64,000 nucleotides of DNA, from the NCBI RefSeq assembly GCF_024721605.1, contig NZ_CP102630.1:1302001-1366000 (forward strand), given 5' to 3'. Under the pieces are notes generated by a model. The model was not told the DNA's origin. It searched no databases and saw only the letters and a program-made list of their open reading frames with translations. A program made the position numbers and the translations under genes. This DNA is from Sphingomicrobium flavum (GTDB lineage Bacteria; Pseudomonadota; Alphaproteobacteria; Sphingomonadales; Sphingomonadaceae). Below are positions 41,083 to 44,971 of this stretch, in pieces; within the stretch, counting starts at the first letter, position 1; the number at the start of each line of letters is the position of its first letter.

Positions 41083-41106
41083 TCCCTTCGACTACGCTCA
41101 TGACGG
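41083..41106. repeat. REP-like element, partial
   Basis: The stretch CCCTTCGACTACGCTCATGACGG resembles the dispersed imperfect palindromes that follow many sphingomonad genes. It contains the stop codon of the PAS histidine kinase (41098-41100). Confidence 0.35.
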
Positions 41107-42231
41107 CATCCTGAATGTGAAACGGGTTTCATCCACCGTTGAGCTGGCCTCCAGCGTGCCGCCGTGCGCTTTGGCGATTTCCGACGCGATAAAAAGACCG
41201 AGGCCTAAGCCGTGCCGACTTGGTCGAACTGCGCCGCGAAAAAAGGGCTGGAACAGCTGTACCTGCGCTTCGGGCGGAATGGGTTCGCCGGAGTTGGCAA
41301 CCGACAGCACGAATTCATCGCCCTGCGTTGTCGCCTCCAGTCTGATGGGTCCCTCCGACGAACCGTGCGTTACCGCGTTGGAAAGGAGGTTGGACACCAG
41401 TTGGGCCAACCTTGAGCGATCGCATGACAGGGGTTCGTCGATCGAGATGGCCGCAAGAAGGTGGTGATCCGGCGCGATGGCGCGAATTTCGGCAATGACC
41501 TGCTCCAGCACCGGTGTCAAAGGCGCATCCGCATCTCGCTCGACGACCAACCCGCCGCCCAGGCTACCGCGCGCAAGATCGAGCGTATCGTCGACCAAAG
41601 TCGATGCCCTGTCCATGCTGCTTTGCATTTCGACAAGGATCGTCCGACCTCTTTCACTCAATTGCTCGCTGCCCTGCAAAATCCGCGTTCCGGCTGCGAT
41701 GGCTGCCAACGGGTTGCGCAAGTCATGGCCAAGCACAGCGATGAACTGATCTCTCATCTCGGCAGTCATTTTCTGGGTCTTGGATTCGGCCTCCGATTTC
41801 AACTTCGCTTCAAGCAAGCTGCGTTCGTAGGTGCGGCGGTCCACGGCCTTGAACAGGGTCAATCGGGTAAAGAGATGCTCCCCATCTGCGCATCGCTTTT
41901 CAGCGGCATTTGCAATCGTGGGAATTTTCTCGCCCGCATCGGTCAACAGGTCGAGAGCAATCTCATGAACATGCCCCTGTAGGCGTAGCAGCGGGGCAAT
42001 ATGCGTTTCCAGGGCAATCCGTCCGCCAAAGCCCAATATGTCATGGATCGATCGACCGACCAATTGCCTCGCATCCGATCCCAGCCAGTCTGACAGAGTG
42101 CGATTGATCTTCGCAATCTTGCCATTGGGCGTAACGGAGAGATAACCGCATGGAGCAGTCTCGTAGAGATCTTCCAAATCTTCGACGGCAGGCTTTTCAG
42201 ACAAAGCTTCGGATCGCTGCGGTAACCTCAT
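41098..42231 (-). CDS. PAS-domain sensor histidine kinase, RsbP-like PAS
   Basis: A 377-residue kinase. N-terminal PAS domain (about residues 16-130) whose sequence, TAPCGYLSVTPNGKIAKINRTL...DAGEKIPTIANAAEK, closely resembles the PAS domain of Bacillus subtilis RsbP. It is followed by a short coiled linker, a HisKA domain with the phospho-acceptor in VLGHDLRNPLAAI, and an HATPase domain with an N box (QLVSNLLSNAVTHG) and a G2 box (HGLGLGLFIASEIAKAHGG). No membrane segment, so soluble. It overlaps the rsbQ-like gene upstream by 35 nt, suggesting joint action. No response regulator is adjacent. Confidence 0.93.
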   Translation of the reverse strand: MRLPQRSEALSEKPAVEDLEDLYETAPCGYLSVTPNGKIAKINRTLSDWLGSDARQLVGRSIHDILGFGGRIALETHIAPLLRLQGHVHEIALDLLTDAGEKIPTIANAAEKRCADGEHLFTRLTLFKAVDRRTYERSLLEAKLKSEAESKTQKMTAEMRDQFIAVLGHDLRNPLAAIAAGTRILQGSEQLSERGRTILVEMQSSMDRASTLVDDTLDLARGSLGGGLVVERDADAPLTPVLEQVIAEIRAIAPDHHLLAAISIDEPLSCDRSRLAQLVSNLLSNAVTHGSSEGPIRLEATTQGDEFVLSVANSGEPIPPEAQVQLFQPFFRGAVRPSRHGLGLGLFIASEIAKAHGGTLEASSTVDETRFTFRMPS

Positions 42232-43000
42232 CAGGTGCGCTGAGATGCGGACAATGGCCAGTCGCGTTCAGCAATCGATATTCGCTGTCCTTGATCTTGG
42301 CATGAACATATCTGCCCACTTCGACCGGCGCGATGATATCGTCGGTGCATTGCAGGATGAGCGTGCGCACGTTGACCAAAGCGAGATCATCGCGATTATC
42401 GGCAAGGAACGTGACACGAGCGAAGTCACGTGCGATTTCAGGGTCGGTGCTGCAGAAGCTATTTTCCAACCGCGCGCCCAACTCGGGCCGGTCCGAATTG
42501 CCCATGATTGCTGGGGCCATGGCGGCAGACCATCCAAGATAGTTGTCCCCCAGGAATTCAAGCAACTCTTGAATCTGCTCTTTCGAAAAGCCGCCACGAT
42601 AGTCATGATCATCGACATAGCGGGGAGAGGGTCCGACCATCACCAGCTCTGAAAACATATCGGGCGCCTTGAGCGTTGCAATGGCACCGATCATCGCGCT
42701 CACCGAATGCCCGACGAATATCGCGTCATGCAAATCTAGAGCCTGGCCGATCTCCACGACATCCTCGGCAAAACTTGACAGGGTCGAATAATGCTCGCCG
42801 GAATAAGCCGCCAGGTCCGATCGTCCGTGGCCGACATAGTCAAACAACACGATCCGGAAACCCTGTTCGAATTCGCGCGACACTGCGTCCCACATGGTCT
42901 GGTCACAGCCAAAGCCATGGGCGAACATCATCGTTCGCTCACCCGAGCCGGAAATTTTGACATTGTTGCGGCGAAGGACCGCCTCAGATGCGGAGTTCAT
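42197..43000 (-). CDS. Alpha/beta hydrolase, RsbQ/KAI2-like
   Basis: A 267-residue alpha/beta hydrolase with strong RsbQ resemblance along its length: NNVKISGSGERTMMFAHGFGCDQTMW, VLFDYVGHGRSDL, the nucleophile elbow VGHSVSAMIG (Ser at about residue 99), LILQCTDDIIAPVEVG with the acid Asp and NATGHCPHLSAP with the His. In Bacillus subtilis RsbQ partners RsbP to sense energy stress; plant homologues bind strigolactone and karrikin. Here its gene precedes and overlaps a PAS kinase whose PAS domain resembles that of RsbP. The natural ligand is unknown. Confidence 0.92.
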   Translation of the reverse strand: MNSASEAVLRRNNVKISGSGERTMMFAHGFGCDQTMWDAVSREFEQGFRIVLFDYVGHGRSDLAAYSGEHYSTLSSFAEDVVEIGQALDLHDAIFVGHSVSAMIGAIATLKAPDMFSELVMVGPSPRYVDDHDYRGGFSKEQIQELLEFLGDNYLGWSAAMAPAIMGNSDRPELGARLENSFCSTDPEIARDFARVTFLADNRDDLALVNVRTLILQCTDDIIAPVEVGRYVHAKIKDSEYRLLNATGHCPHLSAPDEVTAAIRSFV

Positions 43001-43094: not shown

Positions 43095-43760
43095 TCACCG
43101 CCGCCCCTTCCTCTCCATCCACCACAAATATTGCATCGCCTGCGCCACCGTCACTTCGGGCGGGCTGGGGTCTTGCCCGGCGGTGCGCATGCGCTCGCGT
43201 AGGTGCAGATCGAAGCTCAATTCGCATTTCTTGAAGATCAGGCCCTGCAAGACGTCATAGGCAATATCCATCGCCATATCGAAGCGCTCGGCGAAGTCGG
43301 GGTCGATATGGCGGCGGCGGTGGATGGTGCTGGGCGAAATGCCCACCGCTTCGGCGGCCAGCTTCACATTGCCCACCGCGGCCAGATGATGGAAGAAACG
43401 CTCCGCGCCCTCGGCGCTCAAACTGCCCTTGGGCATGCGCCGGATCTTGGGCGGCCTGCCGCCGCGCCCCGGCACCAGCATCAATGATCCGGGCTGCGTG
43501 CGCAGATCGCGGCTGTGGGTCAGGAACTCGCTGTTCGGCCCCACCTCGTGGAAATGCGCCAGCGCGGCCACGCAGCGCGCGGCAAAATCCGCCTCGCGCC
43601 GCCGCTTGCGCCGCACCGCCCCCTCGGTTCGCCCGATCATCTGCGCGGCAAAGGCATGGTTGCCGGTGGCGGACAGGACATAAAGGTAGCGCCGCACCTC
43701 CGGCTCGCGGATTTTCTTGCCGCGCCGATTGCTGGTGGCATGTGTAGGATCGGGCTTCAT
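43095..43760 (-). CDS. Protein with two tandem terminase-like helix-turn-helix units
   Basis: A 221-residue basic protein with an internal duplication: YLYVLSATGNHAFAAQMIGRTEGAVRRKRRREADFAARCVAAL and HHLAAVGNVKLAAEAVGISPSTIHRRRHIDPDFAERFDMAM align as two helix-turn-helix units about 85 residues apart (near residues 25-67 and 123-163). Units of this shape occur in phage terminase small subunits and Helix-turn-helix 'homeodomain-like' regulators. No phage gene is nearby. A DNA-binding role is likely; the exact function is unknown. Confidence 0.65.
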   Translation of the reverse strand: MKPDPTHATSNRRGKKIREPEVRRYLYVLSATGNHAFAAQMIGRTEGAVRRKRRREADFAARCVAALAHFHEVGPNSEFLTHSRDLRTQPGSLMLVPGRGGRPPKIRRMPKGSLSAEGAERFFHHLAAVGNVKLAAEAVGISPSTIHRRRHIDPDFAERFDMAMDIAYDVLQGLIFKKCELSFDLHLRERMRTAGQDPSPPEVTVAQAMQYLWWMERKGRR

Positions 43761-43804: not shown

Positions 43805-44971
43805 TCAGGCGATGCCGAAGCTGCGGTCCACCAGCCGCGCGGCCAGCCCTTCTTCCTGGTCGTCATTGACCGAGGCCGCCACCGCATCGAGCGGTACGAT
43901 CAGCCGATAGGTGAAGCTGTCCATCTCGAAGCTGCGCGTCGCCTCGCCCTTCAGCATGGCCGGCACGATGCGGTTGAGCAATTTGCTGCCAAAGCCTTCG
44001 CGGTCGCCGCGGGCGAAGTCCACGTCGATCGCCTCGCCGCCATGTTCGCGCCAGACAAGGTCGAACGCCTGTAATTCGTCGGGTCCGGCATGCACGTCCC
44101 AGCTGATCTCGACGATGCCGTCGGCGGAACGGGGCAGGAAATATTTCTGCGCATTGGTGGCCAGTTCGTGCAACGCCAGGCTCAATTGCTGCGCCGCCTC
44201 GGCGGTGATGGGGAAGGAGGTACCGCTGATGCGCACCTGGTCGGGCACGGCGTGGATCAGCGGTTCCAATTGCTTGTCGATGATGGCGCGCAGGTCGCCC
44301 ACGGATTGCTTGCCCTCCGACACCACCAGCGCGGTCGCATCGGCAAGCGAACCCACCCGGCCGTGGAAAGAGGTCAGGAAATCGTCCATCGAGGTGGCAC
44401 CGCGCGCGCTCTGGCTGGCGAGCGAGCTGACGACCGAGAGGAGGTTGCGGCTGCGATGCACCGCCTCGCGCGCCTGGACCGCCAGGCGGGTATTGAGCTC
44501 GTTCAATTCCTCGGTGCGCTGTTCGACCTTGCTTTCGAGCGAGGCCAGCGTCGCCTCATGCGCCGCCGCTTCGGCGCGCAACTGCTCGTTCACCTCGCGC
44601 AGATGCGCGGGCGATGGCAGCGATACCAGGGTCGGGATCAGCCGGAACAACACCAGCGCGGTGATCATCGACACGATGCCGGTCGCCAGCTTGAGGATGC
44701 CGACATAGGGATAGATGGGCTGCCACAGCGTCACGATCCCCATCAGGTGGGTCAGCCCGCACAGCAGGATGAAAGAGGCGAACAGGACGATCAGCCCGCG
44801 ATGCGGAATGTCGCCGCGCTTTTTCAGCACCGTCAGCAGCGCGATCGGGATCGCCATATAGGACAGGAAGATGAGAAGGTCCGACCCGGCCCATAGCGTG
44901 ATCAGCCAGGGTTGCCACAACAGGCACATGCCGTGGGGCATATATTGGGCGATGTCGATGAATGGGTTCAT
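43805..44971 (-). CDS. HWE-type sensor histidine kinase with ETR1-like ethylene-binding membrane domain
   Basis: A 388-residue kinase. Residues about 22-113 form three membrane helices that align without gaps through helix 2 with plant ETR1: Asp31, Tyr38, Pro42, Ile68, Cys71 and His75 match ETR1 Asp25, Tyr32, Pro36, Ile62, Cys65 and His69, which bind copper and ethylene; a Lys and the final IP motif of helix 3 also match. A coiled coil (about 125-165) links to an HWE-type dimerisation helix with the phospho-acceptor in EAVHRSRNLL (His172) and an ATPase domain with ELATNAQKYF. The ATG at 44971 has GAGGG 10 nt upstream. Ethylene or copper sensing is inferred from these residues. No response regulator is adjacent. 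Confidence 0.93.
   Translation of the reverse strand: MNPFIDIAQYMPHGMCLLWQPWLITLWAGSDLLIFLSYMAIPIALLTVLKKRGDIPHRGLIVLFASFILLCGLTHLMGIVTLWQPIYPYVGILKLATGIVSMITALVLFRLIPTLVSLPSPAHLREVNEQLRAEAAAHEATLASLESKVEQRTEELNELNTRLAVQAREAVHRSRNLLSVVSSLASQSARGATSMDDFLTSFHGRVGSLADATALVVSEGKQSVGDLRAIIDKQLEPLIHAVPDQVRISGTSFPITAEAAQQLSLALHELATNAQKYFLPRSADGIVEISWDVHAGPDELQAFDLVWREHGGEAIDVDFARGDREGFGSKLLNRIVPAMLKGEATRSFEMDSFTYRLIVPLDAVAASVNDDQEEGLAARLVDRSFGIA

Follow-up and report, generated by a model that had tools for sequence, protein, structure and literature searches.

A putative copper-dependent ethylene receptor with an HWE histidine kinase in Sphingomicrobium flavum

The putative receptor gene, its product and its surroundings

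A gene encoding a protein of 388 amino acids was found on the minus strand of the window (the whole 64,000-nucleotide stretch of Sphingomicrobium flavum DNA analyzed here), with its ATG at position 44971 and its TGA at 43807 to 43805 (Table 1). Translation of the open reading frame upheld the coordinates given in a first-pass annotation made from the sequence letters and added the strand, which that annotation had left out. Relatives of the protein over its full length showed 42 to 61% identity. The N-terminal part matched the Pfam model ETR1_N (PF25487) with 108 bits against a cut-off of 27, covering profile positions 2 to 97 of 97. That annotation had named an HMM search as a possible refutation of the proposed ETR1-type ethylene-binding domain, and the search placed the domain in ETR1_N. 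In addition, the ETR1_N model matched none of 14 control genomes, and a match by chance is therefore very unlikely.

The C-terminal half matched HWE_HK (PF07536) with 61.8 bits (cut-off, 22.8), and HisKA_2 scored lower and remained under its own cut-off (19.4 versus 22.3 bits). In NCBIfam, the top-scoring models were those of a LOV blue-light kinase and of a related subfamily, both far under their cut-offs, and a Pfam scan gave no PAS or GAF match in the linker between the two domains (residues 119 to 168). HWE kinases are defined by a conserved N-box His and a W-x-E motif. In an alignment of 36 proteins combining an ethylene-binding domain with an HWE kinase (EBD-HWE), the window protein has these as LALHELATNAQKY and LVWREHG, respectively. 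The earlier assignment of the kinase to the HWE family agrees with Pfam, with the motifs AVHRSRN, LALHELATNAQKY, LVWRE and GFGSKLL, and with the predicted fold, which resembles the kinase of LOV-HK (E 2.7e-14).

An AlphaFold2 model was built from a 30-sequence alignment (A4), from which L035, L046 to L048 and L052 were left out. Its mean pLDDT was 85.4 and its pTM 0.54, and the domain arrangement in the model is therefore unsure. A short helix is followed by three long helices, a single helix formed by residues 121 to 191, and the kinase. These helices, together with the distribution of Lys and Arg residues (four in loop 1 and two after helix 3, but none in the N-terminus or loop 2), suggest three transmembrane helices with the N-terminus outside. 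The best PDB structures among the Foldseek matches listed were LOV-HK and EL346 of Erythrobacter litoralis, both over the kinase, and the kinase part of the model superposes on LOV-HK. No solved structure matching the membrane domain was found by sequence search or among the 50 of 381 Foldseek matches listed.

Table 1. Features of the putative ethylene-receptor gene in the window
Feature	Position	Strand	Basis
Whole gene: ethylene-binding domain, helical linker and HWE histidine kinase	43805..44971	-	388 aa; translation, Pfam
H13-G-x-C16-x-x-W19 motif, short helix before helix 1, predicted periplasmic	44915..44935	-	36 of 36 proteins; model helix 13-19
ETR1_N ethylene-binding domain, residues 23-118	44618..44905	-	Pfam PF25487, E 3.1e-31
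Helix 1, residues 21-51, with Asp31, Tyr38, Ile41 and Pro42	44819..44911	-	AlphaFold2, translation; membrane role inferred
Helix 2, residues 58-83, carrying Ile68, Cys71 and His75	44723..44800	-	AlphaFold2, translation
Presumed Cu(I) ligands Cys71 and His75	44759..44761 (Cys71), 44747..44749 (His75)	-	Role from ETR1 C65/H69 as described in PMC6586836
Helix 3, residues 87-117, with Lys94, counterpart of ETR1 Lys91	44621..44713	-	AlphaFold2, translation; numbering as described in PMC11819568
Linker and signalling helix, residues 119-168	44468..44617	-	AlphaFold2 helix 121-191; Pfam scan
HWE phospho-acceptor domain, residues 169-251, with H172	44219..44467	-	Pfam PF07536, E 1.1e-16
ATP-binding part, residues 252-361: HELATNA N-box, W307-x-E309, GFG box	43889..44218	-	Alignment of 36; phmmer to 5epv/6ph4, to residue 361
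C-terminal tail LAARLVDRSFG, residues 376-386	43814..43846	-	Recognizable in most of 30 relatives without a decayed kinase

A search for conserved neighbours, proposed in the first-pass annotation, yielded no operon partner. The most widely shared surroundings were rplK/nusG flanks, the receptor gene standing between nusG and rplK in 7 of 25 relatives (L019 to L022, L024, L025, and L030). rplK also adjoins the window gene, and nusG was also found at L027; both gene names were read from sequence, and some loci had short flanks. With a home-made receiver profile, no receiver-domain gene was detected in the 8-kb flanks of the window gene, and the kinase therefore looks like an orphan. Receiver-domain matches were present in the fetched flanks of 5 of the 25 relatives (L034 and L038 to L041), those of L041 being a hybrid kinase and an OmpR-type regulator.

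An open reading frame of 221 amino acids (43095 to 43760, minus strand), which had only helix-turn-helix matches below cut-off, lies between the receptor gene and an RsbQ-type gene; several relatives have nusG on the corresponding side. The RsbQ-type gene (42197 to 43000, minus strand) encodes an alpha/beta hydrolase that matched RsbQ in the PDB with E 1e-92 and the plant proteins KAI2 and D14 with E of about 1e-56 to 1e-52, and it overlaps a PAS-HisKA kinase gene (41098 to 42231, minus strand). KAI2 and D14 are the karrikin and strigolactone receptors of plants. The ETR1-type gene and the hydrolase gene, relatives of two plant hormone receptors, are accordingly placed about 0.8 kb apart in the window. 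Among clusters present in at least 4 loci, no such pairing was found in the flanks of the relatives, and the proximity is therefore probably a coincidence.

Ethylene-binding residues and the N-terminal HGxCxxW motif

In the translated protein, Asp31, Tyr38, Pro42, Ile68, Cys71, and His75 stand exactly where the first-pass annotation had read them, and Ile41 and Lys94 are also present. Tyr38, Ile41, Pro42, and Ile68 are presumably the counterparts of ETR1 Tyr32, Ile35, Pro36, and Ile62. As described for AzoEtr1 of Azospirillum brasilense, D35, C75, H79, and K98 of that receptor correspond to ETR1 D25, C65, H69, and K91 (PMC11819568). The window residues D31, C71, H75, and K94 follow this AzoEtr1 numbering at a constant −4, and the offset from ETR1 is therefore +6 in helices 1 and 2 and +3 in helix 3. 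The +6 offset claimed earlier for helices 1 and 2 was thus recovered through the Pfam model and the AzoEtr1 numbering of that article. All seven residues required in ETR1 (D25, Y32, I35, P36, I62, C65, and H69) have their equivalents in the window protein. The membrane domain of ETR1 is described as binding one Cu(I) per monomer, with C65 and H69 as ligands (PMC6586836), which is the basis for the presumed ligand role of Cys71 and His75.

The seven residues read DYIPICH in all 36 EBD-HWE proteins, the window protein included. Among 115 distinct domains of all layouts (124 loci after merging of identical domains, with the fragment L018 counted), 90 retained all seven; Cys71 was kept in 109, His75 in 111, His13 in 107, and Cys16 in 109. 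From these sequence features, the membrane domain is predicted to bind copper and ethylene. Several ETR1_N matches (L103, L100, L101, L168, and L169) are without a copper ligand or other binding residues, and it is possible that the fold has been put to non-ethylene uses there.

The HGxCxxW motif was carried by 36 of 36 EBD-HWE proteins and stands upstream of the Pfam match, whose first residue is 23. It is conserved about as well as the copper ligands and occurs in most of the bacterial domains sampled; to our knowledge, it is absent from ETR1. His13/Cys16 was missing in 6 of the 8 rows without Cys71/His75 (one of them the fragment L018) versus 4 of the 107 others (Fisher p 2e-6 over 115 related rows), a p value that is inflated because the rows are related and some domains are generally decayed. 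Only 4 tree-independent pairs were available for this co-loss, of which a mean of 3.5 were in agreement (median p 0.25), and 4 pairs cannot reach significance. Seven tree rows lack the ligands; of these, 5 had lost His13, 4 Cys16, 3 Trp19, and 2 Gly14, compared with losses in 1 to 4 of the same rows at each of ten control positions (Pro113 in 4). Asp31 was also lost in five of the ten motif-less rows. Since eight of these ten rows have lost Asp31 or stand on long end branches, the co-loss may largely reflect general decay. A link between loss of the motif and loss of the copper ligands is thus suggestive only.

Distribution of the layout and a branch with decayed kinases

Of the 61 genomes sampled from the genus, 12 had an ETR1_N match, as did 33 of the 296 from the order, 28 of the 385 from the class, and 29 of the 398 from the phylum (28 above the cut-off); these samples overlap. 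The 12 matches in the genus consisted of seven EBD-HisKA-receiver hybrids (L007 to L013), four EBD-HWE proteins (L014 to L017, including that of the window), and one 90-amino-acid fragment. The 30 distinct proteins from the genus and order carried HisKA in 16 cases, HWE_HK in 11, and HisKA_2 in 1; the corresponding numbers for the 52 distinct proteins from the class and phylum were 36, 5, and 3. L078 matched both HWE_HK and, more strongly, HisKA_2. In single scans, L166 and L103 were both HWE and both had PAS; the ethylene domain of L103 is decayed. One scan through named genomes yielded 34 loci. The match spans most of the protein in 25 of these (L019 to L043), which belong to Erythrobacteraceae, Sphingomonadaceae (Novosphingobium marinum), Roseobacteraceae, Paracoccaceae, Ahrensiaceae, and one unplaced MAG. 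The record names of several relatives indicate marine, estuarine or saline places, and most genera carrying EBD-HWE relatives are marine.

In a quick tree of 114 domains (150 columns), where kinase labels were taken from motifs and reading and 21 of the 114 rows were unlabelled, 35 main-group HWE rows fell on one side of a branch with an SH-aLRT support of 95. L166 was placed next to them (91), and L103 apart from the main group, on a long branch. The 90-amino-acid fragment L018 was dropped from the trees, and L174 is in the 36-protein alignment and absent from the tree; the alignment also includes L035, which has a truncated open frame and an incomplete kinase. Judged from alignment and tree, the EBD-HWE layout is a conserved group, and the window protein is one of its 36 members.

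Among 72,556 plasmid records, one has a copy that spans 80% or more of the protein. The plasmid is pBSY18_2, and its host, Blastomonas sp. RAC04, was isolated from an algal phycosphere. This copy (L174, 2113 to 4095) is annotated only as 'sensor histidine kinase'; it is followed by two convergent single-domain response regulators, and a site-specific integrase is near. One scan of viral contigs, as a check for phage carriage, gave no relative. L052 of Qipengyuania mesophila matched only residues 324 to 386 of the receptor, with no open reading frame for the domain, and is perhaps a broken receptor copy.

The kinase is decayed in 6 of the 36 EBD-HWE proteins, L038 (Erythrobacter sp. NAP1), L039, L040, L042, L069, and L077. 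The N-box is lost in all six, with WELASRF-like sequences in place of HELATNA, and so is the GFG box, whereas W-x-E is retained. The phospho-acceptor His is changed to Gln in five of them, and L042 retains it; L038 still matches HWE_HK by score. Among the relatives without a decayed kinase, the N-box His is missing in three (L041, L075, and L174). The six form one branch in the quick domain tree (SH-aLRT 100) and retain every ethylene residue, as would be expected if selection acted on the sensor without kinase catalysis. Plant subfamily 2 receptors have likewise lost kinase residues, and the six bacterial relatives resemble them in this respect. With such members at hand, the need for kinase activity can be tested.

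Relation to known receptors, output and proposed mechanism

The cyanobacterial receptor SynEtr1 (Synechocystis slr1212) contains PAS and phytochrome-like GAF domains besides its ethylene-binding domain. Like the window protein, it is a bacterial ethylene receptor, described as signalling through a histidine kinase and a response regulator; SynEtr1 and AzoEtr1 were the functionally described bacterial ethylene receptors found (PMC11819568). AzoEtr1, which is reported there to bind 14C-ethylene, is alphaproteobacterial as well and shares the N-terminal ETR1-type domain, the seven residues plus the lysine, and a histidine kinase output. According to its published description, however, AzoEtr1 has 525 amino acids, its sensor and kinase are separated by a PAS domain, and the end of its gene overlaps that of a response regulator, whereas the window protein combines an HWE kinase with the lack of any PAS match and has no regulator neighbour. 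The plant ETR1 family has ETR1_N, the Cys and His copper ligands, the Asp-Lys pair, and the histidine-kinase layout in common with the window protein, which differs from ETR1 in having no GAF or receiver match and HWE instead of HisKA. The hybrids L007 to L013 come from the same genus and have the same ethylene-binding domain and N-terminal motif, but they are about 530 to 570 amino acids long, carry HisKA and a receiver, and occupy another part of the domain tree. LOV-HK (5epv, 6ph4) and other HWE/HisKA2 kinases give the best sequence and structure matches to the kinase half; in LOV-HK the input is a light-sensing LOV domain instead of a membrane ethylene domain.

No description of an ethylene-binding domain joined to an HWE kinase was found in searches of an open-licence library, which agrees with the earlier suggestion of a new receptor layout. 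The layout is not unique to this locus, since 36 proteins share it, and an alphaproteobacterial ethylene receptor was already known in AzoEtr1. Three things appear to be new: that proteins of the HWE layout form a conserved group, the window genome also encoding PhyR, NepR, and an ECF sigma factor; that six of the 36 members have lost kinase motifs with their ethylene residues intact; and that all 36 carry the N-terminal HGxCxxW motif, ahead of the Pfam match.

The window genome has 6 HWE_HK matches, including that of the window, and 31 receiver-domain matches. At one locus it encodes PhyR (NCBIfam, 374 bits against a cut-off of 240), NepR (Pfam), an adjacent ECF sigma factor, and a HisKA_2 kinase; the sigma factor is called EcfG from its position beside PhyR/NepR, and with this designation PhyR, NepR, and EcfG are all present. 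A FATG-motif regulator with the run PVLFATGN is also encoded (L137). A loose EcfG-type promoter pattern, GG[AG]A[CT]-N15-18-CGTT, was sought in the 300 bases preceding each of 23 genes, namely the window gene and 22 of 26 relatives (L023, L028, L033, and L035 being left out). It was present for one relative (L031) and absent for the window gene. Such a promoter would favour a stress-response input but is not needed for it. In Sphingomonas melonis, most HWE/HisKA2 kinases are described as phosphorylating SdrG and converging on PhyR (PMC5964349). By analogy, PhyR and/or the FATG-motif regulator of the window genome are the likely targets, and we put forward tentatively, at somewhat less than even chances, that the receptor feeds the general stress response through them. 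Regulator neighbours differ between copies, two single-domain regulators adjoining the plasmid copy and none the window gene; with no regulator neighbour common to the copies, the link to the stress response rests on analogy.

The gene probably encodes a copper-dependent ethylene receptor histidine kinase. In the mechanism that we propose, the receptor would sit in the inner membrane as a dimer whose N-termini face the periplasm, and each membrane domain would hold Cu(I) via Cys71 and His75. Asp31 and Lys94 would relay the state of the ligand to helix 3. Once bound to the copper, ethylene would shift helix 3 and, through the linker, the phospho-acceptor helix, so that autophosphorylation would change; the kinase would then phosphorylate PhyR and/or the FATG-motif regulator, making ethylene an input of the general stress response.

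Profile searches can be misled by hydrophobic sequence, and the ETR1_N match might arise by accident from the composition of a hydrophobic N-terminus in an otherwise ordinary HWE kinase. A chance or compositional match was rejected on the score far above the cut-off and the empty control genomes; the required residues are, moreover, invariant in 36 proteins, and such an accident has next to no probability. It is also improbable that the membrane domain, while binding copper, serves to detect a signal different from ethylene, such as copper itself, the redox state, or some other gas or small alkene. The HGxCxxW motif does bring in a further conserved Cys and His outside the plant-type site, and no tie between the gene and an ethylene source was found; nevertheless, all seven ethylene residues, beyond the metal ligands, are retained, and the AzoEtr1 domain with the same seven is described as binding ethylene (PMC11819568).

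The choice of output is a closer matter. The protein might be a real ethylene receptor with its kinase acting on a dedicated regulator, or on a surface, biofilm or c-di-GMP pathway, instead of on the general stress response. Known bacterial ethylene receptors are described as affecting biofilm formation and, in Synechocystis, phototaxis (PMC11819568), the plasmid copy adjoins two single-domain regulators, and the window genome has 31 receiver-domain matches; on the other hand, most of the S. melonis kinases mentioned above converge on PhyR and SdrG (PMC5964349), and the 8-kb flanks in the window are without a receiver-domain gene. We regard a dedicated output as possible but doubtful. Returning to the proposed stress-response input, a broader reading would join three parts: ethylene as a direct general-stress input through the HWE kinase to PhyR or the hub, a kinase-independent decayed branch, and an HGxCxxW motif that loads or caps the copper. 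It is unlikely that all three hold together. Within this joint reading, the decay of the kinase beside an intact ethylene site would mean that the receptors can work without histidine kinase activity, and the decayed-kinase branch would be a bacterial parallel to the plant subfamily 2 receptors.

Taken by its sequence, the window protein is very probably a well-conserved ethylene-receptor kinase. Being compact (388 amino acids, with no PAS or GAF match), it would be useful for learning how copper and ethylene move helix 3. The conserved HWE group, the phycosphere plasmid copy, and the marine and saline records suggest that ethylene may matter to bacteria away from land plants and may act on their stress physiology.
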